DNA of 32,136 bases from Nitrososphaerota archaeon (GTDB lineage Archaea; Thermoproteota; Nitrososphaeria; Conexivisphaerales; UBA164). Where the stretch lies: contig JAMCTX010000020.1 of assembly GCA_023381255.1 (NCBI GenBank), forward strand, positions 1-32,136, in the 5' to 3' direction. This document shows positions 16,516 to 31,029 of the stretch, piece by piece (position 1 is the stretch's first letter; each line of letters opens with the position of its first letter). The position numbers and the translations under genes were made by a program. The notes below the pieces were generated by a model. It saw nothing but the letters and a program-made list of their open reading frames with translations. It was not told the origin of the DNA and searched no databases.

Positions 16516-17070
16516 TCATCCTCCATCCCTCACCTGTCTGAGATGTTCAATGTAGAGGGTGTGGAAGACCCCCTTCAGAAACTGCATGCTTATGTTTACC
16601 CTGAATTTCGTCGCAAACTTCCTTGTAAGCTCAATGTTTGCCAGTAACCATGCGTTGTAAACTATCAGAGCATAGTAAAAGTAAAACGTTCTCAAAGAAC
16701 GGTTCCTGCTTGTTGTCCTGGCCCTGAACTGCTCAACCCCCTTGTAGCCGGTCTCTATTCCCCACCTCTTCCTGTACTCTTCCGGAATAATGCTGATGTT
16801 CCACAGCACCTTATGCTCTGGCAGGTTTGTGGCAAAAGCTATGTACTTATCTTTAAGCAGGTTTGATTTTGCGTTTTGCTTGGGAAGTATCACGATGGTG
16901 AACGTTGCCCTCTCCTCTTCAGGGCCCATTGTAAATGTGGAAATTGCAGGCCTCTTATGGCTGTCATATTCTGCAAGCGCCTTCTTGATGCCTGTGGTTA
17001 GCTTGCAAGGGACCAGGAAGTACTGTTTCATCTTCTTCAACCTGTTAAAGCCCAGGGTGCCTGTTTCATA
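16516..17070 (-). pseudogene. IS4-type transposase, C-terminal remnant
   Basis: About 185 codons of a DDE transposase. YRKRWGIETGYK fits the Y-x2-R-x3-E signature that contains the third catalytic acid of IS4-type enzymes, and ARTTSRNRSLRTFYFYYALIVYNAW is a common C-terminal sequence of archaeal members. The frame is closed by a TAG at 17071-17073. The N-terminal half with the first two catalytic aspartates is absent, so the element cannot be autonomous. Confidence 0.8.
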
Positions 17071-17470
17071 CTATGTGGAAAATGTGCTGCTTGAAAACAT
17101 CGAAACAGAAGACCCGATAAAACAGTACGGTCCTTTCCTTTCATACGTTAACACTAGCGAGAATATAATACATATAAATGACTGGAAGCAGCAGAGGATA
17201 GCCGGCGTAAGGGTTCAGGCTAACAAGGACGGTTCCTTTTCGCTTTTCTGCGAGCTTGGCAAGACAGATAACTGCGTGCACGTGGGATTTGCGCTTGCAT
17301 TGCCCCAGTTTTACAGGATGCTCGGGGAAAGAGCCCAAAAAAAAGCTGAATTGATTACAGCTGCAGCATCATACATAATTTTTGATATGCAAAATCGGCA
17401 TAGCCTATCAATCCAACAAAGCCAAGTTATTTTGTCAATATTTTTGATGATGAGCGCCAATTATAAATAG
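17057..17470 (+). pseudogene. 3' remnant of a host gene caught between insertion sequences
   Basis: A plus-strand frame of good coding character, DPIKQYGPFLSYVNTSENI through CELGKTDNCVHVGFALALP, with a C-x7-C-x-H group suggestive of metal binding. It begins abruptly at the transposase remnant without a start and ends at a TAG lying inside the left inverted repeat of the IS701-like element. Both ends therefore coincide with mobile DNA. I do not recognise the family. Confidence 0.55.
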
Positions 17471-18556
17471 GACTTACGTAGTTGAACTATGAATGATAAC
17501 CATAAATTTTTTACAAGATTAACGAAAGAATTTGATTTGCAATCTTAATATTTTCTTCATGATTTTCCCATTCAAATGAACCCCGCGAAGTGCAACGACC
17601 TAGATTACATTGATTTCTCATAGCGTCGCAGATGGCATTTACCTGCACCGAAGCAGCTCGCTGCCAGCCCGATGACAGGCAAAATGTTGCCCATGATTCA
17701 TATAACAGGCTGCTTGAAAGACTGCCTCAAAATACCGAGGCGTTATGGAAGGAGTCAAGGGCGCTGGTTGACCTAAAAGGCGGCGTCCTTATTCTTGAAG
17801 ACACAACCATTGACAAGCCGTATTCAGAAAAGATGGATTACGTGACTTATGCCTGGAGCGGCAAGCACCACAGTGAAGGGAATAAACGTGATAACACTGC
17901 TCTGGTCTGACGGTAACACACTTATCCCAACCGGCTTCAGGATATACAACGCTCCAAAGGATGGCCTGACAAAGAACGACCACTTTGCCTCCATGCTTAA
18001 GACAGCAAAGACGAGGGGCTTCTCAGTGAGCTATGTCCTTTTTGAGAGCTGGTACTCTTCACTTGAAAACCTCAAGCTTGTAAGGGAGTACAGATGACAC
18101 TTCACACGGATAAAGTCAAACAGGCTCGTGAACCCAGACAGGAGCGGAAACGTGCAGGTTGACTCACTGCAGATACCAGAAGAGGGCCTGGTTGTGCACT
18201 TGAAGGGTTTTGGAATGATAAAGGTGTTCCGGACAGTCTCCAGGGAAGGGGACGTGGGCAACTGATAACCTAGGCATGAAAGAAAACGAGAGAAAAGAGC
18301 TTGCAGGCAAGGCATGGGGGATAGAAGTGTTTCACAGGGGAATCAAGCAGTGCTGAGGGCTGGAGAGGGTGAGGAAGGGCAGGAAGGCGTTCAACCACAT
18401 TTGTTTATCAATAAGGGCATACCTAAGACTTGAAGTCCACAGGCTGAGGTCTGGAATAAGCTGGTATTAATCAAAGGCTTTGATAATCAGGGAGGCGATA
18501 AGGCCATACTTGGCTAATCCGGCTTATAAACTGGGGTCAACCGCGTAACTCCTATT
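17466..18556 (+). mobile_element. Decayed IS701-like element with terminal inverted repeats
   Basis: The left end AATAGGACTTACGTAGTT (17466-17483) and the reverse complement of 18539-18556 (AATAGGAGTTACGCGGTT) agree at 15 of 18 positions. They enclose a single broken transposase gene, giving an element of about 1.09 kb, normal for this group. Because the outer bases also match as an inverted repeat, the exact boundary and target duplication cannot be fixed. Confidence 0.75.
17576..18548 (+). pseudogene. IS701-like transposase, multiply frameshifted
   Basis: Reading across frames gives an almost full-length transposase of about 320 residues: MNPAKCNDLDYIDF, then RLLERLPQNTEALW, then GGVLILEDTTIDKPYSEKM with the first catalytic Asp region, WSGKHH, GINVITLLWSDGN, VLFESWYSSLENL, KAWGIEVFHRGIKQC and finally IREAIRPYLANPAYKL. 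It is inactivated by at least three frameshifts (near 17618, 17873 and 18255). It also has in-frame stops where the family has Trp (TGA, about 18096), Cys (TGA, about 18353) and a residue after SWY (TAA, about 18469). It is an old, dead copy. Confidence 0.82.
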
Positions 18557-19633: not shown

Positions 19634-19653
19634 CCAAAATTATACAATTAAAG

Positions 19654-19713
19654 TTGGGGATGGAGTCCCCCTTCAATTGCCCACAATAGGACTAATGACT
19701 CCTACTGAGGTGG
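19654..19713 (+). ncRNA. Fluoride (crcB-type) riboswitch upstream of the MutS-like pair
   Basis: The P1 hairpin pairs GGGG (19656-19659) with CCCC (19668-19671) around the 8-base loop ATGGAGTC. The loop bases GGAGTC (19662-19667) pair perfectly with GACTCC (19697-19702), forming the pseudoknot that defines the fluoride aptamer. The 3' part, TAATGACTCCTACTG, matches the conserved end of that class. The aptamer ends directly at the Shine-Dalgarno GAGGTGG (19707-19713), seven bases before the ATG at 19721. CCAC (19681-19684) inside the aptamer can instead pair with GTGG (19710-19713) and mask the ribosome site, a plausible off state. Control is therefore probably at translation initiation, on with fluoride. 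Confidence 0.85.
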
Positions 19714-19720
19714 TAAACTG

Positions 19721-21214
19721 ATGGCATTCAAAAGTATATTGTGGACAGAAGATGGTACATTTAGTAACGAACATAATTTCTTTGCCGACCTTAACCTTGA
19801 ACAGGTAATTAATGAAATAACAAAAGGGGATCAAGAGTTAAAGCAGTTGTTCTACCTTCCCTTAAAGTCAAGCACTTCAATTGCTTATAGGCAGAAAATA
19901 TTTGAGGATCTTGAAAATAGCAAAACCTTGAATTCAATTATGGCATTTTATACTAAAATAGAAAAAATTGACAAGCAACTGCAATATTTAGACAAATTAT
20001 ACGATTATCAAAGGGAAGGCGTATTTATTGAAACGGTGATCAGCTACTGCAATGCATTGATTGACCTCGCTGCGGATTTGAGTAATGCACCTCTGAAATC
20101 CACAGGATTAGCTGATTTCCGGGATTTTTTAAAAACATATTTAGAGTCACATGAATTTACAGTCCTTAAAATAAATGCCGAAAAAATACGCTCAAGCATA
20201 TCTTCAATCAAGTTCATAATAACGATAAACGGCGGGCGGATAACAGTGAAAAAATATAACGGTGAAAACGGTTACAATAATGAAATCGTATCTGCTTTTA
20301 GCAAATTTGGCGTTAGAGAAGTGAATGGCACGCCTGAGGTGCGCAATAACTTCAATCATATTGAAGCAAATATCCTGAAGCTACTGGCAAATATATATAT
20401 AAATGAATTTTATACATTAAAGGAGTTTTACAAACAAAACAAAAATTTTATTGACCAAATAATATATAAATTTTACAAAGAAGTAAGGTTTTACTTGTTT
20501 TTTATTGATTATATAACGCCATTGAAACTTGGTGGCCTAAGCTTCTGCTTGCCTCAAATAGACCCAAATTGTGAAAAAGTATTTGGTAAGGAAATGTTTG
20601 ACTTCGTGCTTGCAAAAAAACTGATCAAGGAAAATAAAAAAATTGTAACAAACGATTTTTACCTGGATGAGCGCATTGTTGTTATAACAGGTCCTAATTC
20701 TGGAGGAAAAACTACATTCGCTAGGGCGTTTGGGCAGATGCATGCCTTTGGAAGACTTGGATTGCCAGTTCCTGGAAGGGCGGCCTCGCTTTGCCTCTGT
20801 GACCACATATTTACTCATTTTGAAATTGTAGAGAGGGTTGAAAATTTGACGGGTAAATTTGAAGATGACCTAGTTAGAATCAGGCAGATAATAGATAAAA
20901 GCACAGAAAAAAGCGTTTTAATAATAAATGAAATGTTAAGTTCAACTTCAATATATGATGCAAAAGTAATAGGAAAACAAATTTTGGAGATAATTAAGGG
21001 AAAAGGGGCAATTTGTGTATATGTAACATTCATAGATGACCTAGCTAAGATCAAAGGAGTTCTCAGCATGGTAGCGCAGGTAGACCCGAATGACCCAAGC
21101 ATAAGAACATACAAAATAGTTGTGCAAGAAGCGTCAAGCAAGGCATACACGGATGTGCTAGCAAGAAAATATGGATTAAGTAAAGAAATGGTGCTCAGGA
21201 GGCTTAAAGCATGA
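19721..21214 (+). CDS. MutS-like ATPase, first of a tandem pair
   Basis: A 497-residue protein with a helical core/lever-like region and a MutS-type C-terminal ATPase, but no mismatch-recognition domain. Walker A is TGPNSGGKTT (323-332); FTHFEIVERVENLTGKFEDDL is the MutS-type strand and signature region, and the Walker B position reads VLIINEMLSSTS with Asn instead of the usual Asp (N403-E404). CVYVTFIDDLA and RTYKIV complete the fold. This sequence type is familiar from bacterial MutS-related proteins that occur as adjacent pairs. The gene is AT-rich compared with the left half of the window and directly follows insertion-sequence remnants, consistent with horizontal transfer. The stop overlaps the partner as ATGA. 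It is unlikely to be canonical mismatch repair; its role is unknown. Expression is predicted to respond to fluoride. Confidence 0.85.
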   Translation: MAFKSILWTEDGTFSNEHNFFADLNLEQVINEITKGDQELKQLFYLPLKSSTSIAYRQKIFEDLENSKTLNSIMAFYTKIEKIDKQLQYLDKLYDYQREGVFIETVISYCNALIDLAADLSNAPLKSTGLADFRDFLKTYLESHEFTVLKINAEKIRSSISSIKFIITINGGRITVKKYNGENGYNNEIVSAFSKFGVREVNGTPEVRNNFNHIEANILKLLANIYINEFYTLKEFYKQNKNFIDQIIYKFYKEVRFYLFFIDYITPLKLGGLSFCLPQIDPNCEKVFGKEMFDFVLAKKLIKENKKIVTNDFYLDERIVVITGPNSGGKTTFARAFGQMHAFGRLGLPVPGRAASLCLCDHIFTHFEIVERVENLTGKFEDDLVRIRQIIDKSTEKSVLIINEMLSSTSIYDAKVIGKQILEIIKGKGAICVYVTFIDDLAKIKGVLSMVAQVDPNDPSIRTYKIVVQEASSKAYTDVLARKYGLSKEMVLRRLKA

Positions 21215-22680
21215 AGGTCAGCCTTTTGTACATTAACGAAAAACTGCCACTAAATGCGGACGACCTGATAATTGACCTCGGACTAAATCAGGTAATTGAG
21301 ACGATGGCCGGAAACGACAAATTTATATTTGATACTTGCACGAAAGTCCTGCTTACTGGGGTTAATGATGAAACTGAAATAGCGTACAGGCATGATGTTT
21401 TGGTTGATGCAATTAACAATCCCAGCATCGTGGAGCAGATGTACCAGATATTGAACGATGCCTCGACCAAAGCGCGTAACAGGCTTTATTTTATCACCAA
21501 ACCACACCCAATATATCTACTATACGAGTCAATTTCCGTATTGGAGATTTTTATTGAGGTGCTTGGCAAAATAAAAACTGTGGTAGGCGATAATTCAGTC
21601 TATTTTAAGTCTGAGGGCTTCAGGTCATTTTTTAAAATAATTTTTGATGAATTTAACCTGCAATACATTACAATGGTGATGAATCATATTAACAACTTAA
21701 GGTTTAACAACGGCATAACATTCAGGTGTGAGATAGGCTCCGGCAACAAGCTTGTTAATTACATCTTACTCAAGCCTGACTCAAAAAAAAGGTTAGCCTT
21801 TTTACGGAAAAGAGAGGAATATTCATATAATTTACCAGCAATGGATGAAGGTGGCGCGCAGATCCTTGATGATATGCGCAATGCCGCAGTTGCGGATACA
21901 GCAGAAATCATCAAGATGGCCGCTGATAATGCGCTTGGATTTATTAATGACACCAAAGCCCAGATCGCATTTTATGTGGGATGTATAAACCTTCATAAAA
22001 AAATGAAAGATCTTGGTGAGCCAACTGCAATTCCGCGTATAAGCAAATCCTCGGTGAAATTCAAGGGCCTATACGATATATCGCTGAGCCTTGCTATAAA
22101 GGGAGGCACGGTTAAAAATTCACTTGAAATAGAAAAACCACTGGTTATAGTTACTGGCCCCAACAGCGGAGGGAAGTCCACCTTGCTCAGGAGTTTGGGC
22201 CAGGCACAGCTCATGTTACGAGCAGGGATGTTTGTGCCTGCAGAATATTATGAAGGACCCTTGCTCAAAACAATCAACACTCACTTTAGAAGAGGGGAGA
22301 GTGCCAAGATGGAAGCTGGAAACTTTGAAAATGAACTGGTACACATAAAGGCAGCAATTGAAAATACCGCGGTTCACGGGCTAGTCCTGCTAAATGAGCC
22401 ATTTTCGTCAACAAACGCAATTGAGGCTACCGAACTGTCAAGGCAGATAATTGACTCATTAATTGAAGGCGGGGTGCATGTTGTCGTGGTGACTCACTTT
22501 TATGAGCTGGCCTGGGAATATATAAAGGATCCAAACGCGGTTTTCCTGAAGGCAGAAAGAAAGGAAGACGGTACGCGCACGTTCAGGATTGTCCCGGGCG
22601 AACCGTCATTCACCAGTTATGGAGAAGAAATTTTCCTTAAGGTATTTGGGGATCTAAAGGTTCACAAGGCAGCAGATTAG
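21211..22680 (+). CDS. MutS-like ATPase, second of a tandem pair
   Basis: A 489-residue paralogue of the preceding protein. Walker A is TGPNSGGKSTLLRSLGQAQ (315-333). FRRGESAKMEAGNFENEL is the conserved region after it, and Walker B is LVLLNEPFSSTN (391-402), again with Asn in place of Asp, followed by VVVVTHFYELAW. The C-terminal PSFTSYGEEIFLKVFG is also characteristic of the bacterial family. It lacks MutS domain I and the clamp. Start and stop are coupled to the first gene (ATGA). The two proteins probably form a heterodimer, as MutS ATPase sites work as composite pairs; that is inference from family mechanism. Confidence 0.86.
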   Translation: MKVSLLYINEKLPLNADDLIIDLGLNQVIETMAGNDKFIFDTCTKVLLTGVNDETEIAYRHDVLVDAINNPSIVEQMYQILNDASTKARNRLYFITKPHPIYLLYESISVLEIFIEVLGKIKTVVGDNSVYFKSEGFRSFFKIIFDEFNLQYITMVMNHINNLRFNNGITFRCEIGSGNKLVNYILLKPDSKKRLAFLRKREEYSYNLPAMDEGGAQILDDMRNAAVADTAEIIKMAADNALGFINDTKAQIAFYVGCINLHKKMKDLGEPTAIPRISKSSVKFKGLYDISLSLAIKGGTVKNSLEIEKPLVIVTGPNSGGKSTLLRSLGQAQLMLRAGMFVPAEYYEGPLLKTINTHFRRGESAKMEAGNFENELVHIKAAIENTAVHGLVLLNEPFSSTNAIEATELSRQIIDSLIEGGVHVVVVTHFYELAWEYIKDPNAVFLKAERKEDGTRTFRIVPGEPSFTSYGEEIFLKVFGDLKVHKAAD

Positions 22681-23052: not shown

Positions 23053-24201
23053 ATGCAGCAAAAATGGTTAACAAGAAACATGGCGCTGATATCGTTATCC
23101 GCGTTCTTTTCTGATATGGGTTATCAGGCTGTGCTGGCAGCATTACCCGTGCTGCTTGTCATAGTGTATCATGCACCGGTTTATGTTTACGGTGTAACTG
23201 TTGCAATTTCATACGGGCTTGGCTCGCTCATGGGGTACATAGGAGGGAGGCTTTCTGACAAATATGGAAAGAAAAAAATTGTAGTTGCAGGGAATGCCCT
23301 AATCCCATTTCTGTCTTTCAGCGGGATTGCCCCCAATGCATACAGTGCTTCAACTATGTTCAGTGCTGGATGGCTTTCCAGAAATTTTCGTTCCCCGGCA
23401 AGGAAATCGATGTTCAGTGATGAAACAAACGAGGAAAACAGGGGAAGAGCATTCGGCTTCCTCAACGCCCTAGATGTGGGGGGAGGGGTGCTGTCTGTAC
23501 TGATGCTGGTTCTGCTCATTTATCTCGGCACACCGCTAAAAGACATACTCATGATAACGGCAATACCTATTACTGTGGCAACCGTCCTGCTTGTTTTCAC
23601 CAAAGAAAGGCATGGCGTAAAAAGAGAAGTTCACGAAAGTGGATCGGGCTCTGGCGCATACAAGGGCGTCATAATAGCAACAGCTCTATATGGGTTCAGT
23701 TACTACAGCCTTGGATTTCCAGTCCTGACGATAGCTCAGGCCACTCACATGGACATTCCCGCGTTTGCATCATATGGTGTATTTCTCCTGGCATCGGCGC
23801 TTTTTGGATACTTCATTGGAACAAAAAAGCTGAAGATAATAACATCGCTTGGGGTGCTGGGTTACCTGCTTTCAGCAATAGGCACAATGCTGCTTGGGAT
23901 AGCTGATTTTATGCACTTGGGGCTCCCGCTGTTAATGGCATCGGTACTTATTATAGGAATGGCCATTGGCACGATTGATACGCTTGAGCCAAACCTGATA
24001 ACTCAGGTCAAAAGGCAGCTGGGGGAAGGCATGGGAGCCCTCACTGCGTCAAGGAGCCTGGGGCTTTTTTTCGGAAATCTTGTGATGGGTATACTGTACT
24101 ACTTTAACCCGGTATATTCGTATACATATGCTGCAGCAGCGGCCTTCTTGGCATTTATAGTGCTTATGGCACTAGGTGGAAAATACAGCGGAAAGATATA
24201 A
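23053..24201 (+). CDS. Major facilitator superfamily transporter
   Basis: A 382-residue membrane protein with about 11-12 hydrophobic segments in two halves separated by a charged loop (KERHGVKREVHESGSGSG, about 190-207). GGRLSDKYGKKK after the second segment is the MFS motif A. The run RSPARKSMFSDETNEENRGRAFGF between segments 4 and 5 is typical of drug/H+ antiporter-like or metabolite exporters. The substrate cannot be told from sequence. It lies between the two fluoride-controlled units but has an independent leaderless promoter. Confidence 0.85.
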   Translation: MQQKWLTRNMALISLSAFFSDMGYQAVLAALPVLLVIVYHAPVYVYGVTVAISYGLGSLMGYIGGRLSDKYGKKKIVVAGNALIPFLSFSGIAPNAYSASTMFSAGWLSRNFRSPARKSMFSDETNEENRGRAFGFLNALDVGGGVLSVLMLVLLIYLGTPLKDILMITAIPITVATVLLVFTKERHGVKREVHESGSGSGAYKGVIIATALYGFSYYSLGFPVLTIAQATHMDIPAFASYGVFLLASALFGYFIGTKKLKIITSLGVLGYLLSAIGTMLLGIADFMHLGLPLLMASVLIIGMAIGTIDTLEPNLITQVKRQLGEGMGALTASRSLGLFFGNLVMGILYYFNPVYSYTYAAAAAFLAFIVLMALGGKYSGKI

Positions 24202-24301
24202 TCATTTCAATTAGCAGTTTTATATAGCATTTTTTGCAACCTGAAAACTGTTTTTATAAAAATAACACCGTAATTGTGATGAAGTAACCAGCAGAATAAA
24301 A

Positions 24302-24310
24302 ATTTATATG
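24302..24310 (+). promoter_or_regulatory. TATA box of the Ehr operon
   Basis: ATTTATATG predicts transcription start at about 24330-24332, right where the second fluoride aptamer begins. The spacing is nearly the same as in the MutS leader. Confidence 0.6.
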
Positions 24311-24334
24311 GTATTATTTTGAAGGTATAATCCA

Positions 24335-24402
24335 GCGGAGATGACGTTCTCCCGGGTCAGTCCCAAACCGCTATAGCTGATAACGTCTACCAATATTTGG
24401 TG
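24335..24402 (+). ncRNA. Fluoride (crcB-type) riboswitch upstream of the Ehr operon
   Basis: P1 pairs GGAG (24337-24340) with CTCC (24349-24352) around the 8-base loop ATGACGTT. GACGTT (24343-24348) is fully complementary to AACGTC (24382-24387), giving the diagnostic pseudoknot. An extra small hairpin GGG-TCAGT-CCC (24354-24364) follows P1, then AAACC, a GC-TATA-GC hairpin (24370-24377) and TGATAACGTCTACC, which closely matches the conserved aptamer end. CCAA-TAT-TTGG (24390-24400) forms a hairpin that covers the GG of the Shine-Dalgarno GGTGA (24399-24403), eight bases or so before the ATG at 24411. Formation of the aptamer would compete for the left arm of this hairpin and free the ribosome site. 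Confidence 0.9.
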
Positions 24403-24410
24403 AAAACAGA

Positions 24411-25358
24411 ATGACAATAATGACCATAGAGGGAGGAATTGTACAGGTTTTGTTTACTTTACTTACTGCTCCCTTATATGGAGGCATAATAAATAAATTA
24501 AAGGCTAGGGTCGAAGGGAAAAGGGGGCCAAGCATTTTCCAACCATATTATGATATTTTAAAACTAATAAAAAAGGAGGTTATAATTCCTGAAGATTCAA
24601 ACCAGTTATTCTTAATTGCGCCATATTTGGTGTTTGCAATTTATGTTGTTATTTCGTTTGTAATTCCTGTGATAATGCCGGCACCGGTGGTTTTTACTGC
24701 CACAGTGGATTTTCTGGGAGGAGGGATACTTTTTACTTTGGCTGCCTTCTTAAAGGTTACAGGAGCTTTGGGCAGTAAAAGCAACTTTGTCGCCCTGTCA
24801 GCTTCTAGAGTAACATCATTTATGTTTCTAGGGGAGGGCACGCTGATTTCTGTCTTTTTTGCGGTTGCTCTTATAACTGGCACAAACAATCCATACATAA
24901 CACTCGCAACTGTAAGTTCATTGAGCAATTATTTTTCACTTGATCACCTGTTTGCTGCGTTTGCCTTCTTTTTATTATGGTTATTTGAAACTGGCAAGCT
25001 TCCAGTAGAGAGTTCAGGCCTGTCTGAGATGGGAATGATTGACGAAGGCATAAATTATGAATACAGCGGTAAGCTCTTAGGATTATCAAAGTGGGGATCA
25101 TATATAAAGCAGTATTTACTGGGTTCAGTGTTTCTGAACGTTTTTCTGTTGCCATTTTGGTTCTTTTATGGCTCCGCGGGTTACATCCTTAACCCAGTCA
25201 TGATGCTTCTCAAGTGGATAATCCTGATCGGAGTTACAGTAATCATTGAAACATCATTAGCTAAAGTAAGGTTATTTAAGATTCAGGATTACTTGGCCAT
25301 AGCATTTACAATTTCTGTATTATCCCTTATCTTGACGGTTATTGGTGGTTTCTCATGA
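24411..25358 (+). CDS. Ehr/hydrogenase-4-like membrane subunit, NuoH/HyfC/HycD family
   Basis: A 315-residue membrane protein with about eight hydrophobic segments, equivalent to complex I NuoH and formate-hydrogenlyase HycD/HyfC. This subunit forms the link between the Fe-S arm and the ion-pumping arm. The family signature EGKRGPSIFQPYYDILKLIKKE is intact, as is ETGKLPVE with its conserved acid. The following segment reads SSGLSEMGMIDEGINYEYSG, where hydrogenase members normally have NPxTHLELTMxHE, so this protein is divergent. It is the first gene after the fluoride riboswitch, with a Shine-Dalgarno GGTGA seven bases before the ATG. The stop overlaps the next gene as ATGA. Confidence 0.88.
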   Translation: MTIMTIEGGIVQVLFTLLTAPLYGGIINKLKARVEGKRGPSIFQPYYDILKLIKKEVIIPEDSNQLFLIAPYLVFAIYVVISFVIPVIMPAPVVFTATVDFLGGGILFTLAAFLKVTGALGSKSNFVALSASRVTSFMFLGEGTLISVFFAVALITGTNNPYITLATVSSLSNYFSLDHLFAAFAFFLLWLFETGKLPVESSGLSEMGMIDEGINYEYSGKLLGLSKWGSYIKQYLLGSVFLNVFLLPFWFFYGSAGYILNPVMMLLKWIILIGVTVIIETSLAKVRLFKIQDYLAIAFTISVLSLILTVIGGFS

Positions 25359-25972
25359 TTGTATACTTCGAAATAGTTTTAATGCTGGTTGTCATAAATG
25401 CCTTTTATATTCAGGGTCAGGCTTATATAAAGCCTGCCATATATGGGCTTGGCGTTGAATCATTAATTATAGGTGCAACAATAGCTGCAATTGGACTGCT
25501 GCAATTTAGCTGGGAGCTATTGTTGTTAGGCATTCTTGTTATAACGCTGAGGGCTTTTGCCATAACTTACGTGCTCGATAGGTCATTTGCCGGTAAATCA
25601 AGATTGAAAAAGGAACCAACAAATATTACGTCAATGTTTGTAATAGACATGTTTACGCTGATTTTTGCCATAATCATATTCCAGTTCTTCTTGATAGATT
25701 ATTTGAAACTCAACGCACCACAGTTACTATTTGCAATAGCGCTGTTCTTTCAGGGGCTTTTCCTTATAGCTTCAAGGAAGAACACATACATACAGGTGAT
25801 CGGCTATGTTGAAGAGGAAAATGCCATGATACTTTTCGGGATATTTATAATCACAATTCCGTTACTTATAGAGGCCAGTGTTCTGCTAGACGTTTTAGCC
25901 CTTATTCTTGTTATTTCGATTGTTGTAAGAGAGAAGGATGAGCACCTGGCCATAGAGGAGTTAAAAGGGTGA
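25355..25972 (+). CDS. HyfE-like membrane subunit
   Basis: A 205-residue, very hydrophobic protein with about six membrane segments, matching hydrogenase-4 component E, whose C-terminal part is related to NuoK. The conserved IQVIGYVEEENAMILFG (about 147-163) carries the paired glutamates that in NuoK-type subunits sit in the membrane proton path. It is translationally coupled to the upstream subunit by an ATGA overlap and followed by the HyfF-like gene after three bases. Confidence 0.82.
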   Translation: MIVYFEIVLMLVVINAFYIQGQAYIKPAIYGLGVESLIIGATIAAIGLLQFSWELLLLGILVITLRAFAITYVLDRSFAGKSRLKKEPTNITSMFVIDMFTLIFAIIIFQFFLIDYLKLNAPQLLFAIALFFQGLFLIASRKNTYIQVIGYVEEENAMILFGIFIITIPLLIEASVLLDVLALILVISIVVREKDEHLAIEELKG

Positions 25973-25975
25973 AAC

Positions 25976-27289
25976 ATGTTGCAAACCTTCCTGATTCCAA
26001 CACTCATCATCTTGGTTCCTGTTTTAGCATCAATTTCTGGTTTAACAAGGTGGTACAGGCATATAACAGTTGGAGCATCAATTATTGATGCTGTTATGTC
26101 CTTATTTCTTTTTAAAAACGTCCAGGCATCATTTTACCTTGTCAATAATACCACATGGATCTTTTCGATGATGATTATCCTGATCTACGTTTTATCTGCC
26201 CTCTTTTCCCTGGAATATATATCAAGCGCAAACTCCGGAATACCGGAAGGCGCCTATTATTCACTAATGAACATATTTGTATCCACAATGCTGTTTACAG
26301 TTCTTATAAACAATTATGGTTTGATGTGGATTGGAATTGAAGCTACAACCATAAGCTCAGCGCTTCTATTATTATCGGAAAAATCTCAGGTGGCGTTGGA
26401 GGTGGCGTGGAGGTACATCATTCTAGTCTCAGCAGGCGTAGCTGTGGCATTTATTTCCATCATCCTGATATATTACTCGCTTGGCACCCTTACTGTTTCC
26501 ATTGCACTAGAGTCAACTGGCAATGCAAAGGTGCTTGCTCTGGCCGTTGCGATCGCACTTGTCGGATTTGGCACAAAGGTTGGCGTATTTCCAGTTCATA
26601 CCTGGCTGCCTGACGCGCACAGTGAGGCACCAGCCCCAATCAGTGCCATGTTTTCCGGCATATTGCTGCCAACTGCTTTGTATGTGCTATATATGCTTTA
26701 CAGGTTGCACCCACTTACAGAACTGTTTTTGGCCTTCGGGTTAATATCTGTTACATTTGCCACAGCCGCCATGGCAAATCAGAGAAGCTTCAAGAGGTTA
26801 TTTGCTTATTCCACAATGGAAAACATGAACATAGCGCTTATTGGTCTGGCGATTGGCGGTTCTGGTATAATTGGTGCTATTTTGCTTCTAGTATCGCATG
26901 CTTTTGGCAAGGCAGGGGCATTTTATTCCTCAGGAATTATCAGTAGAAAATATAACACAAAGAATATAGACGACGTTGCAGGGGCCCAGGGATTAAGATT
27001 GACTTCTACCGCGCTTATTTTGTCATCCATGGCGGTTACAGGCGCTCCACCCTTTGCAAATTTCATAGGCGAATTTCTGATAATAACCCAGCTCTTTAAG
27101 ATGGGTCTTACGCCAGAGGCTGTTTTCCTCTCGATGATGATTGCCACTGCGTTTATCACTGTAAACTATCATGTGACAAAGATGGTGTTCAAAGGCAAGA
27201 AAACGCTTGATGAACCAAAGATGATGGCTGTTGTGGCGATCATCTCCTCACTGGTGCCGCTTGTTTTGGGGTTGGTAATGGTAATATGA
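25976..27289 (+). CDS. HyfF-like antiporter-type membrane subunit (NuoN/MrpD family)
   Basis: A 437-residue protein with about 13 membrane segments, of the proton-translocating antiporter-like family shared by complex I, Mrp antiporters and hydrogenase-4. The hallmark GFGTKVGVFPVHTWLPDAHSEAPAPISA includes the conserved Lys and the HTWLPDAH motif; SLEYISSANSG and FKRLFAYSTMENMNIALIG are further family motifs. It is somewhat shorter than E. coli HyfF (about 526). The stop overlaps the start of the large-subunit-like gene as ATGA. Confidence 0.88.
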   Translation: MLQTFLIPTLIILVPVLASISGLTRWYRHITVGASIIDAVMSLFLFKNVQASFYLVNNTTWIFSMMIILIYVLSALFSLEYISSANSGIPEGAYYSLMNIFVSTMLFTVLINNYGLMWIGIEATTISSALLLLSEKSQVALEVAWRYIILVSAGVAVAFISIILIYYSLGTLTVSIALESTGNAKVLALAVAIALVGFGTKVGVFPVHTWLPDAHSEAPAPISAMFSGILLPTALYVLYMLYRLHPLTELFLAFGLISVTFATAAMANQRSFKRLFAYSTMENMNIALIGLAIGGSGIIGAILLLVSHAFGKAGAFYSSGIISRKYNTKNIDDVAGAQGLRLTSTALILSSMAVTGAPPFANFIGEFLIITQLFKMGLTPEAVFLSMMIATAFITVNYHVTKMVFKGKKTLDEPKMMAVVAIISSLVPLVLGLVMVI

Positions 27290-28422
27290 GTATGGGAAGA
27301 AGGATTGGAAAACTGGGTGACTATGTGCTTTATGCAGGTGGTTTAAAAAAGGAAGAGATCTCAGACGAGGAAAACGCAGAGATGCCAGAGATGCCATATG
27401 GGACCTTTAATTTTACATATGGCCCATCAGCTGGCGGCCTTATTGAATCGATTGGCTTCGATATTTTGACAAACGGTGAGTACATAGTGGCAGTAAAGCC
27501 CAGGCTATACAAGTGCAGGAAGGTTCATGTAACAGGATTGAACATAAATGACGCGGTGTTTGCTGTGCAGAGGATAAATGCCGCATTTTCAGCTTCACAT
27601 GCAACTGCCTTCCTGCTCGCATCTAGCAAAGAGATTGACTATTATATGAAAATAGATTTGATTCTGAAGATGGAGCTGGAAAGGATCAGGAACAACCTTC
27701 ACGTTATAGGGCGAATGGTTGATGCTTCGTCTCAGGGCGTAGCGTCAAACTGGATCTTTTACCTGCGCGAACTTGTAAACAGGTCTATAGACAGAGCATA
27801 TGGACACAGGTTCTTCTTTAACAGCAATGTAAACAAGTATGACGGTCTGGGCAAAGAGTTAAAATCAATAAACAAGGAGTTCATAAAGGCGCTTGACGGT
27901 CTGCTTGGGACGCGCATTTTTATAGACAGGCTTGAGAAAAATGGCACTATTAGTTCAGATGACCTGATAGGACCAGCTGCAAGAGCTGCAGGATATGACT
28001 ATGATGCCAGAAATGAAGTTGACCTCCCATATAAAGACCTGGGGTTTAGGAGCAAGACAGATCTGTTCAAGGCTGAAGGAAGAGGTGATGCTCTTGACCG
28101 ATTCCTAATAAGGGCCAGTGAAATACCCACTTCAACCGAATTAGTGGAGCGTGCACTGGATTTAATTGGAAAAAGGGGCTTTCCCAATCCATCTGTGCAT
28201 AATGATGTTGGAATAGGCAGGGTAGAGTCACCCTCAGGGGACCTTGCATATTATGTCAGAATCAATGATAAAAAGGTACAGGAGATATATCTCCTCTCGC
28301 CTTCAGATAGAAACCTTGCCTTTTTTGCAAGGTCAATGGCAGGCAATATTTTTACCGATTTTCAGTTCAACTGGGAGAGTTTTGGGGTTTGGGCGTCGGA
28401 ACTGGGGGTGTCATTTACATGA
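27286..28422 (+). CDS. Hydrogenase large-subunit-like protein lacking nickel ligands (Ehr)
   Basis: A 378-residue homologue of HycE/EchE and complex I NuoD. Family framework is clear: YGTFNFTYGPSAGGLIESIGFDI, HVIGRMVDASSQGV and a C-terminal GNIFTDFQFNWESF. Where hydrogenases have RxCGxCxxSHxxAF this protein has RINAAFSASHATAF, so both cysteines are Asn98 and Phe101. Where they have SFDPCxSC it has SFGVWASE, with Trp369 and Glu372. All four Ni-Fe ligands are gone, so it cannot make or oxidise H2. It has no separate 30-kDa (NuoC-like) domain. The product would sit in an energy-converting-hydrogenase-related complex of unknown substrate. The next gene overlaps as ATGA. Confidence 0.86.
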   Translation: MSMGRRIGKLGDYVLYAGGLKKEEISDEENAEMPEMPYGTFNFTYGPSAGGLIESIGFDILTNGEYIVAVKPRLYKCRKVHVTGLNINDAVFAVQRINAAFSASHATAFLLASSKEIDYYMKIDLILKMELERIRNNLHVIGRMVDASSQGVASNWIFYLRELVNRSIDRAYGHRFFFNSNVNKYDGLGKELKSINKEFIKALDGLLGTRIFIDRLEKNGTISSDDLIGPAARAAGYDYDARNEVDLPYKDLGFRSKTDLFKAEGRGDALDRFLIRASEIPTSTELVERALDLIGKRGFPNPSVHNDVGIGRVESPSGDLAYYVRINDKKVQEIYLLSPSDRNLAFFARSMAGNIFTDFQFNWESFGVWASELGVSFT

Positions 28423-29021
28423 GCTGGTTTTTAAGAGGTATAAAAAAGGGAGTAAAGACAGAGCGTTTCCCTGTGGGTGACCCCGAATATAAGCCAGGAT
28501 GGTCCACCGAAATTTCAGGGGAGGGACCCGCTGAGTGCCCCACAGGTGCGATAGATAATGGCAGGTGGATTCCAGAAAGGTGCATATTTTGCAGAAGGTG
28601 CTATCCAAATTATAAGCCAACCGGAAACGTGAGAATAGGTAAAATTTACAGGACTAATGGAATGTTCAGCAAGTCGCTGCATGTATACACCATTGATGTT
28701 GGTTCTTGCGGCGGATGCAATCAGGAGATCAACGCACTGACCAGCCCACATTATGACATGAATAGGTTAGGAATATTTTTTGTAAACACGCCAAGACAAG
28801 CTGACGCGCTGGTCGTCCTCGGACCATTAAGTGAAAGCATGAGAGAGCCACTTATGAGGGCTTATCAGGCAATGCCTGAACCGAAACTGGTAGTGGCTGG
28901 ATGTTCCTGTGCGGTGGTAAACGATTTTCCGCTAAAGTTTGATGCGGTTATACCCGGAAGCCCGCCAAACCCATATACAATGCTGGATGTCCTCATTAAG
29001 CTGGGGCGAAATAAAAAATGA
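28419..29021 (+). CDS. Fused ferredoxin-like and NuoB/HycG-like small subunit
   Basis: A 200-residue Fe-S protein. The N-terminal 65 residues are a reduced ferredoxin-like domain with C40 and C55-x2-C58-x2-C61, enough for one [4Fe-4S] cluster of the usual two. The rest is a NuoB/HycG-like domain: DVGSCGGCNQEI (C97, C100), GCSC (C162, C164) and PGSPPNPY. In hydrogenases and complex I the last motif is GCPP; here the ligand is Ser181, so the proximal cluster must use both C162 and C164, a serine, or a lower iron content. The ATG at 28419 was chosen because it makes the same ATGA overlap as its neighbours. Fusion of a HycF-like ferredoxin with HycG is unusual. Confidence 0.83.
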   Translation: MSWFLRGIKKGVKTERFPVGDPEYKPGWSTEISGEGPAECPTGAIDNGRWIPERCIFCRRCYPNYKPTGNVRIGKIYRTNGMFSKSLHVYTIDVGSCGGCNQEINALTSPHYDMNRLGIFFVNTPRQADALVVLGPLSESMREPLMRAYQAMPEPKLVVAGCSCAVVNDFPLKFDAVIPGSPPNPYTMLDVLIKLGRNKK

Positions 29022-30742
29022 TACTTCCAGTCATTTTACTTTCTGCATCAGTTCTCATAGCTGTATTCAATAAAAAACTGGGGTATATAGCGATAGCATT
29101 TTCCGCTATAGTTTTTGCAGCAATTAGCGTACTAAGTTTCAGTTTGCTACACGCTTTCTGGCTAGTTGCATCAATTTCTTGGGCTATGATATCACTGTAC
29201 TCTCTATCCTATGATAAATATGGTAAGTGGCTTTCGGCACTCCTTTCAATCATGATAGCTGGTATGTCATTGGTCCTAACTGCAAACAACTTCATTTTGT
29301 TTCTGGCAGGCTGGGAAATCATGAGTATTTCATCATATTTTATACTTGGCTTGAATAAAAGCAATGAATCACCCCCATTTCTTTTTATGGCATTCAGTGA
29401 AATAAGCACCATGATGATACTATTGGGCTTTAGCCTGGCCTATTCAGAAACTGGTTCTCTGGCATTTGTTCACCTTTCTTCCTCATTGCCTCTTGACCTG
29501 ACAGTCATGGGTTTTCTAATAAAAATGGGGTCGTTCCCATTTCTGCTTGTAGAGTGGTTGCCTGCAGCTCACGGCGAAGCTCCGGCCAACGCTTCAGCGG
29601 CCCTGAGTGGAACAATGACCCTGATGGGTGCATATGGAATAGTAAAAATGATAGGGATAAGCCCAGCAGATGTCCAGCTGGGCCTGCTATTGCTTGGCAC
29701 CGGCGCGTTTACGGCTTTTTTCGGCGCCCTCTATGCGCACACTACTGATCACTATAAAAAACTGCCAGCCTACAGCACCATTGAAAACAACGGTTCCATA
29801 CTTGTACTGTTTGGAGCCGCGCTTTTAAGTCCAAATTTAACCATCAAGTATTTTGCGCTAGTTGGAGCCCTGTTATTTGGCATGGCCCACACATTTGGAA
29901 AAACAGGGCTATTCATGATCAGCGGACTGGTAGACGGTGAATCACTTAGTCAGTCAAATGGGCCGCGCTCGTTAACTATAGATGCAGGAAAGGCATTGTT
30001 AACTTCGTCGCTGTCAGGGCTCCTACCCAGCTTGGGAGGTGTTGCTACATGGATGCTCCTCGAAATTACATTTATGCTTGCATATGTTGAACGATATACG
30101 CTTCTTGGCGTTGTATTCATAATTTCTGGAATAGTTATTGCCATTGCTGAAGGAATGGCAACCAGCGTCATGATTAAATTCTTTGCTTTCTCCGGGGCTT
30201 TTTCTTTGTCAATTAAAAAAAGTAATGCATGGGCATTTCTGATGGGAATAATTGTTTTGCTTTCTGGTTTAACTGCCTCGGTTATTGTGGGGGCAATTGA
30301 TTCATCATATATTGGATCGGCCCCTTCACTGTACAATTATTTTATAATCTTCTCTCTCAAGAGCTCGACTTCGACTTTTGGCGGCATAGATCCGCTATAC
30401 ATAGGCATCCTTATCGGTGCGTTTTCCTTGTTGACTGTAGCAATATTTGGAAGGCCAAAAGCCAGAAGGGCACCAGTATGGAATAACGGGGAAGCACAAG
30501 GGGAAAAGTACACGTCAACGGCGTTTAGCCACAACATAATATTAATGCTGAAAATATTTTACAGGCCAACGCATTATAACATCACAAAGAACGTTTTCTG
30601 GCAATTTTTGTACTTTATAACAAGGGCTTATAAAAAACTGACCAAGGCTGTAACATACTACGTTATGAACAGCTCCATAAGCACGTACATGCTGTACATG
30701 ATCATGTTACTGATATTTATCATAATAATAGTTTCATTATGA
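29018..30742 (+). CDS. HyfB/NuoL-like antiporter-type membrane subunit
   Basis: A 574-residue protein with about 15-16 membrane segments. Motifs include LAGWEIMSISSYFILG with the conserved glutamate of the fourth-fifth segment, FLIKMGSFPFLLVEWLPAAHGEAPANASAALSG with the conserved lysine and histidine, and KKLPAYSTIENNGSI. It is a second proton-channel subunit beside the HyfF-like protein. An extended polar loop near 470-500 and a final C-terminal membrane helix match HyfB/NuoL topology. Coupled by ATGA overlaps at both ends. Confidence 0.88.
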   Translation: MILPVILLSASVLIAVFNKKLGYIAIAFSAIVFAAISVLSFSLLHAFWLVASISWAMISLYSLSYDKYGKWLSALLSIMIAGMSLVLTANNFILFLAGWEIMSISSYFILGLNKSNESPPFLFMAFSEISTMMILLGFSLAYSETGSLAFVHLSSSLPLDLTVMGFLIKMGSFPFLLVEWLPAAHGEAPANASAALSGTMTLMGAYGIVKMIGISPADVQLGLLLLGTGAFTAFFGALYAHTTDHYKKLPAYSTIENNGSILVLFGAALLSPNLTIKYFALVGALLFGMAHTFGKTGLFMISGLVDGESLSQSNGPRSLTIDAGKALLTSSLSGLLPSLGGVATWMLLEITFMLAYVERYTLLGVVFIISGIVIAIAEGMATSVMIKFFAFSGAFSLSIKKSNAWAFLMGIIVLLSGLTASVIVGAIDSSYIGSAPSLYNYFIIFSLKSSTSTFGGIDPLYIGILIGAFSLLTVAIFGRPKARRAPVWNNGEAQGEKYTSTAFSHNIILMLKIFYRPTHYNITKNVFWQFLYFITRAYKKLTKAVTYYVMNSSISTYMLYMIMLLIFIIIIVSL

Positions 30743-31029
30743 CATATGTGGTATTTCTAATCCAAGCAAAGCCAACAATTCCAAATGCTGAATTATTAAA
30801 GCAGCTTTCAACTCTAGGAAAGAAATTGGCAAATAGAGAAGCTGGTTACCAAGATGTGGAAGATGATGGCACATTCAAATTCTATGATAAAGATGCATAC
30901 AATGAATGGTCTAACTTTGCTAATGAGGTGTGGGCAAATTACGAAAATGAATACAAAAAACTTTTCAACGAACAACAGGTGAACTTGATAAAGCCAGAAT
31001 GGAGATTTGTTCTAGAAAACACCGCCTAA
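30739..31029 (+). CDS. Uncharacterised small protein, last gene of the Ehr operon
   Basis: A 96-residue soluble, acidic, cysteine-free protein rich in aromatic residues (NEWSNFANEVWANYENEYKK). It begins with YVVFLIQAKP, a likely first beta strand, and ends with EWRFVLENTA. It starts inside the stop of the HyfB-like gene (ATGA), exactly like the genes before it, so it is translated with the complex. I know no family for it. It could be an accessory or regulatory subunit. Codon use is more AT-rich than in the membrane genes. Confidence 0.65.
   Translation: MTYVVFLIQAKPTIPNAELLKQLSTLGKKLANREAGYQDVEDDGTFKFYDKDAYNEWSNFANEVWANYENEYKKLFNEQQVNLIKPEWRFVLENTA

Follow-up and report, generated by a model that had tools for sequence, protein, structure and literature searches.

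The window, i.e., the whole 32,136-nt stretch of DNA analysed here, carries on its forward strand a fluoride riboswitch aptamer that is directly followed by an operon resembling complex I and group-4 hydrogenases (24411-31029). Using cmscan, we find the Rfam family RF01734 (fluoride riboswitch) at 24328-24396 on the + strand with a score of 46.3 bits, compared to a gathering threshold of 34, and an E-value of 5.8e-10; the match spans the full model (positions 1-64). Such an E-value is far beyond chance, and a chance aptamer is therefore ruled out. An earlier sequence-only reading had proposed a crcB-class fluoride aptamer, to be checked with this very model, and the score bears it out. Its interval, 24335-24402, combines the aptamer with the anti-Shine-Dalgarno hairpin discussed below and is thus not that of the RF01734 match itself.

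All structural elements named in that reading, i.e., P1, an 8-base loop, a 6-base pseudoknot and the conserved end, are present in the window sequence. P1 is formed by GGAG (24337-24340) and CTCC (24349-24352), with 4/4 positions paired, and encloses the loop ATGACGTT (24341-24348). The pseudoknot pairs GACGTT (24343-24348) with AACGTC (24382-24387) at 6/6 positions, and the conserved aptamer tail CTGATAACGTCTACC is intact. P3 is degenerate and reduced to GC-TATA-GC (24370-24371/24376-24377). By analogy with the solved T. petrophila RNA, we take A24380 and U24388 to be the linchpin nucleotides (A40 and U48). Within an alignment of 24 aptamers from relatives, P1 and the pseudoknot show covariation, with two-sided changes at 7 pairs, and 95.7% of the alignment cells are paired, compared to 38-58% when slid. 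Upstream, a TATA-like box (tttatatg, 24301-24308, + strand) can be read from the sequence; it is consistent with a transcript starting near the 5' end of the aptamer, an inference given that the start site is not mapped.

The window genome (1.28 Mb, 85% complete) holds two RF01734 matches only. The second one, which the earlier reading had missed, is located at 19647-19711 (+ strand, 47.1 bits), directly followed by a Shine-Dalgarno sequence and the ATG of a MutS-like ATPase gene (19721-21214, PF00488). A second such gene (21211-22680, + strand, PF00488) is KamC-like (NF052383, 5e-26, below cut-off). Both encode MutS domain V only; the mismatch-recognition domain MutS_I was not found by domain search in 19721-22680, and the two proteins are 29% identical over their matched part. 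DNA mismatch repair MutS is rejected, given 58-74 bits compared to cut-offs of 480-642 and the missing MutS_I. KamC, a reactivase ATPase, is among the best named relatives. For the fluoride regulon, the 'mutS' product may act in enzyme reactivation and not in DNA repair. The pair is also found near Ehr operons in several archaea and bacteria. An MFS transporter gene without a riboswitch of its own (23053-24201, + strand, PF07690) lies between both riboswitch units. Between the upstream DNA and this fluoride cluster, the translations of 16516-18315 show fragments like broken transposase genes. The contig start (1-23, cctacacgacgctcttccgatct) matches an Illumina adapter and is presumably untrimmed adapter, not biology.

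The operon downstream of the first aptamer starts with a NuoH/HycD-like membrane subunit (EhrH, 24411-25358; Pfam PF00146, 2e-31), whose best PDB match is subunit 4 of formate hydrogenlyase (FHL; 7z0s_D). It is followed, all on the + strand, by a HyfE-like membrane subunit (25355-25972; NCBIfam NF008556, 1.9e-4; homologous ORF in 79/80 related loci), a HyfF/MrpD antiporter-like subunit (25976-27289; NF005042, 2e-164), a NuoD/large-subunit homologue without Ni-binding cysteines (27286-28422; PF00346; closest PDB entry MBH alpha, 6cfw_L), a NuoB-like small subunit with an N-terminal ferredoxin-like cysteine motif (28419-29021; PF01058 and cysteine conservation) and a HyfB/MrpA antiporter-like subunit (29018-30742; NF005046, 8e-168). 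The last ORF (30739-31029) encodes a 96-aa protein of unknown family without Pfam or NCBIfam match. Most neighbouring genes overlap by ATGA (25355/25358, 27286/27289, 28419/28422, 29018/29021 and 30739/30742), which also couples the 96-aa ORF to the operon; HyfF starts 3 nt after HyfE. The NuoB-like ORF was listed from TTG 28389, with ATG 28419 being the likelier start.

We also compared the functional residues of these subunits among homologues. Glu142 and Lys201 of HyfF are invariant (75/75), as are Glu100 and Lys169 of HyfB (62/62). For the small subunit (numbering from ORF 28389), 64/66 homologues retain the ferredoxin-like cysteines 50, 65, 68 and 71; from the same 66, the cluster cysteines 107 and 110 are kept in 62, 174 in 61 and 191 in 49, the last and fourth of which is a serine in the window. 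Within the large subunit, RINAAF replaces the hydrogenase motif RxCGxC and TDFQFN replaces DPCxxC; no conserved cysteine is found at the Ni-ligand positions of 69 large-subunit homologues, and none of the four is present in the window. The operon thus combines NuoH-, NuoD-, NuoB- and antiporter-like subunits with a large subunit that lacks the CxxC Ni-binding motifs, which is what defines an Ehr complex. With the NiFe site lost and the ion path as well as most of the Fe-S relay retained, the operon is, as judged from its sequence, one for an Ehr complex and not for a hydrogenase or formate hydrogenlyase. This agrees with the sequence-only reading, which had named an Ehr complex as the regulated target.

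Between aptamer and operon, the hairpin UACCAA-UAU-UUGGUG (24388-24402, + strand) forms a candidate expression platform, i.e., an ACCAA-TAT-TTGGT stem to which a U24388-G24402 wobble pair can be added. In it, U48 of the linchpin and the aptamer's 3' tail can base-pair with the Shine-Dalgarno sequence GGTGA (24399-24403, + strand), located 7 nt before the ATG at 24411. The latter matches the 16S 3' end of the window genome, which carries ATCACCTCC. Taken alone, this hairpin is only weakly stable (-4.1 kcal/mol, z -0.73), and folding the complete window leader gives nothing unusual (z -1.21). Analogous hairpins are observed in relatives. For 45 short-leader sequences (the two of the window and 43 from relatives), folding of the stretch between pseudoknot and start codon gives a mean z of -2.3, with 71% of the values below -1; the respective shuffles preserve composition only, and the related sequences are not independent. 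Pairing of the anti-Shine-Dalgarno type recurs across relatives although the sequences vary, the clearest case of the aptamer's 3' strand pairing with the Shine-Dalgarno sequence being GCCTACTCC...GGAGTAGGC before the ATG in locus L148. Folding reveals no such hairpin in the leaders of some relatives (L121, from Acidiplasma aeolicum, and L129), and the leader of the second window aptamer has a z of +0.8 in the same fold test. A sigma-70/terminator scan of a Nitrospira leader found nothing.

Given the family mean z of -2.3 and the weak hairpin of the window, we consider translational ON control well supported for the family and likely, if not shown, for the window; the direction of switching is inferred. 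The proposal that CCAA-TAT-TTGG masks the Shine-Dalgarno sequence as a translational switch therefore holds for the presence of the hairpin and gains support from the family, and is limited by the weakness of the hairpin alone in the window. Compared with the RF01734 aptamers of B. cereus and T. petrophila, the aptamer sequence, P1, the 6-bp pseudoknot and the conserved tail are the same. The window differs by its reduced P3, by a target that is not an exporter and by the platform, which in this archaeon appears translational, with the linchpin strand hiding GGTGA, instead of a terminator.

To assess the recurrence of this arrangement, an alignment of three EhrH proteins was used to collect 149 related stretches in GTDB genomes, from which the best 80 were kept (L110-L189). 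Aptamers were annotated with a covariance model (R1), which replaced a regex detector that had found 88/108 known matches. R1 places an aptamer at most 1 kb upstream and on the same strand at 68/80 EhrH loci (best 80 of 149); this upstream region makes up 3% of the searched sequence and holds more than half of the R1 matches. Locus L110 (Metallosphaera yellowstonensis) has a permuted operon with HyfF first and an aptamer 17 nt before HyfF, such that, with L110 included, a fluoride aptamer is found at the operon's 5' end in 69 of the best 80 loci of 149. R1 was built from 24 aptamers, mostly of the same loci it counts. Since its count includes its own seeds, a control with RF01734 on NuoH genes matters: among the matches listed, RF01734 is upstream of 48/61 NuoH genes in the Ehr score range compared to 0/83 complex-I-type NuoH genes of the same genomes (p 1.5e-26, uncorrected for shared ancestry). 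At the genome level, RF01734 is present in 67/77 genomes holding the best 80 of the 149 loci (42/49 and 25/28) and in 86/400 genomes of the window's class. This comparison is only a rough one, as the samples differ. The class includes Nitrosopumilaceae.

In the EhrH tree, aptamer-bearing rows are found on either side of the midpoint root. The lineages with aptamer-linked Ehr operons comprise Sulfolobales, Thermoplasmata, Nitrososphaerota, Nitrospirota, Pseudomonadota, Acidobacteriota, Myxococcota, Actinomycetota, Chloroflexota and others; many of the carrier genomes are incomplete MAGs. The window EhrH groups with those of Sulfolobales (99/94), which suggests, on the basis of this placement, a lateral transfer. 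Most aptamer absences fall within one Nitrososphaerota group of the tree; no aptamer was detected at the Nitrososphaerota Ehr operons L128, L131, L133-L136, L139 and L155, which form a natural comparison group. Two of these aptamer-less genomes have CrcB. Overall, the data suggest that fluoride control characterises almost the whole Ehr branch, for which no fluoride response has been measured.

We also screened the carrier genomes for CrcB, and the window genome for CLC-F. CrcB was not detected in the window genome, nor was a hidden copy found. With two Nitrosopumilaceae loci set aside, 41 archaeal loci have aptamer-linked Ehr, and CrcB was detected in none of their genomes; it is also absent from the Metallosphaera genome (L110). 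Both Nitrosopumilaceae have CrcB, as do most bacterial carriers (16/21 in G454-G474). That is, Ehr is not a mere CrcB substitute, since most bacterial holders have both. Of 200 genomes sampled from the class to which a Thermoplasmata carrier belongs, only 34 (17%) have CrcB. Given this background, the absence of CrcB (0/36, p 0.004, uncorrected for ancestry) is only weakly to modestly linked to Ehr, which weakens the idea that Ehr caused the absence. The two CLC proteins of the window genome match ClcA better than fluoride CLC and neither adjoins an aptamer; we thus discarded them as CLC-F candidates.

What was observed computationally is the aptamer, the operon, the loss of Ni ligands, the retained ion-path residues, the recurrent linkage and the lack of detectable CrcB. 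The best overall explanation, which we hold to be probable with clear reservations, is that the fluoride riboswitch turns on translation of an ion-pumping Ehr complex that counters acidification by HF; pumping, role and switch direction are inferred. Without fluoride, U48 and ACCAA of the aptamer's 3' end would pair with UUGGUG such that the Shine-Dalgarno sequence GGTGA is hidden. Once Mg-fluoride is bound, the pseudoknot and the A40-U48 linchpin would hold this strand, the ribosome site would open and the whole ATGA-overlapping operon could be translated. The operon is predicted to encode an ion-translocating membrane machine (NuoH-, HyfB-, HyfE- and HyfF-like) with Fe-S electron-transfer subunits and without a NiFe site. 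This machine would most likely use reducing power to pump H+ (or Na+) and thereby restore pH and proton-motive force upon HF entry. In most of these archaea, Ehr would fill the place that belongs to CrcB in the regulon of other organisms.

HF enters cells and acidifies them, and fluoride export needs proton-motive force (PMC11139923). Fluc is a passive channel that relies on an inside-negative potential (PMC3755343). In acidophiles the potential is inside-positive, and these organisms are hypersensitive to fluoride (PMC12831704). Given the acidification by HF, the dependence of export on proton-motive force and the poor fit of a passive Fluc to inside-positive acidophiles, inducing an ion pump would make sense as a response. 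Acidophily of the window organism is an inference from its relatives and has not been shown. No site for an electron acceptor is recognisable, i.e., the pumping role is inferred without a known acceptor.

The same subunits can be read with redox chemistry as the main purpose. Here, fluoride would induce a rerouting in which ferredoxin or another carrier is re-oxidised when glycolysis and phosphoryl transfer are blocked, with pumping being secondary. This would fit the ferredoxin-like cysteine motif conserved in 64/66 small subunits, the ferredoxin and enolase genes within the fluoride island of a Nitrosopumilaceae MAG and the PPDK among the aptamer-linked genes of a Nitrospira MAG. Still, the acceptor site is not recognisable, and both the conserved antiporter-like arms and the many carriers from acid environments remain unexplained, such that we regard rerouting as an unlikely alternative that deserves to be kept in mind.

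Another option, which we judge doubtful, is that Ehr itself extrudes fluoride (as F-/H+ or HF, powered either by redox energy or by ion exchange) and serves as the primary exporter in archaea without CrcB. In these archaea, Ehr sits at the aptamer with CrcB undetected, the CLC proteins of the window genome are nearer to ClcA than to fluoride CLC, and a passive Fluc would work poorly under an inside-positive potential. However, subunits of this type have no known fluoride-specific motif, the conserved residues are the usual Glu/Lys of H+ paths, bacterial holders usually have CrcB as well, and the CLC-F comparison covers the window genome only. With the same doubt, one may speculate about the Ehr branch of acid-living archaea as a third kind of defence against fluoride, next to Fluc/CrcB channels and CLC-F antiporters, i.e., a redox-powered complex extruding fluoride or HF; if true, it would serve these archaea where a passive channel cannot work.

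Genes for formate hydrogenlyase and mutS were listed downstream of the crcB-class RNA by Weinberg 2010 (PMC2864571); for formate hydrogenlyase, the sequence-only reading had stated this correctly. A 2024 review explains the formate hydrogenlyase of the fluoride regulon as a shift to fermentation. The genes so labelled (Weinberg 2010; Baker 2012, cited via PMC11139923) are in all likelihood the gene group described here, preceded by the same riboswitch. In favour of the literature label, FHL subunits 3, 4 and 7 are the closest solved relatives of three subunits. The membrane arm and small subunit of the window complex show sequence homology to FHL of E. coli (7z0s) and MBH of P. furiosus (6cfw). 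The window complex differs in having neither a NiFe site nor an FDH module. H2 chemistry is contradicted by the absent Ni ligands. HypD was not detected in the 85%-complete window genome and is missing from 61/78 genomes in all, i.e., from most carriers. A formate dehydrogenase was found neither in the operon (Pfam, NCBIfam) nor recognised among recurrent neighbours, the clustering of which is cluttered by antisense ORFs in GC-rich genomes. With Ni ligands, HypD (in most holders) and an operon-encoded formate dehydrogenase missing, the hydrogenlyase reading fails for this branch; we reject it, and with it a hydrogenase, as very improbable. We attach just as little weight to an aptamer that switches the operon OFF, or that has decayed and no longer affects it: the short P3 and the weak anti-Shine-Dalgarno hairpin of the window would allow for this, but the conserved aptamer nucleotides and the perfect 6-bp pseudoknot are kept, the platforms of relatives point to ON control and the linkage of aptamer and Ehr endures over great divergence.

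The riboswitch class and its bare association with such genes are already known. For the Ehr of comammox Nitrospira and ammonia-oxidising archaea, which is likewise complex-I/group-4-like without CxxC motifs, the function is called unknown and fluoride is not mentioned (PMC10284858, PMC10432482). Members of the branch are found in the same or neighbouring lineages, with the membership of those exact proteins not being established. A literature search for 'fluoride riboswitch' and 'hydrogenase' returned only an unrelated paper among open-access articles, subscription papers being outside its scope. Within this scope, linking an entire Ehr branch, whose function is unknown, to the fluoride response appears to be new. 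As far as the open-access literature shows, the same holds for the identification of the regulon's 'hydrogenlyase' as an Ehr complex, at least in this branch, and for the nearly branch-wide fluoride control, without CrcB in most archaea concerned. The data suggest that the Ehr of unknown function and the 'formate hydrogenlyase', for which the fluoride field has no satisfying role, are one thing, namely an Ehr branch that responds to fluoride nearly throughout. The function of the branch becomes directly testable by fluoride challenge, and the linkage hints at how exceptionally fluoride-sensitive acidophiles may cope without a CrcB channel.

Finally, we observe further fluoride-linked genes around Ehr loci. 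Fluoride islands of Nitrosopumilaceae MAGs (L046/L047 and L044/L045) show 6-8 aptamers around enolase, Ehr, HAD hydrolase and CrcB genes; the L046/L047 island adds a Rieske protein, an MFS transporter, a [4Fe-4S] ferredoxin and TFB. The genomes of L167 and L169 hold unusually many fluoride riboswitches, with 11 and 13 matches, respectively. For a Nitrospira MAG (L171, 1-8600), the genes linked to aptamers include one for a Na+/H+ exchanger together with one for a universal stress protein, as well as genes for a dynamin-like GTPase, a PPDK-like enzyme and AAA/MFS proteins. A universal stress protein gene is found near Ehr in 26/80 loci (e.g., L160, 16132-16635).
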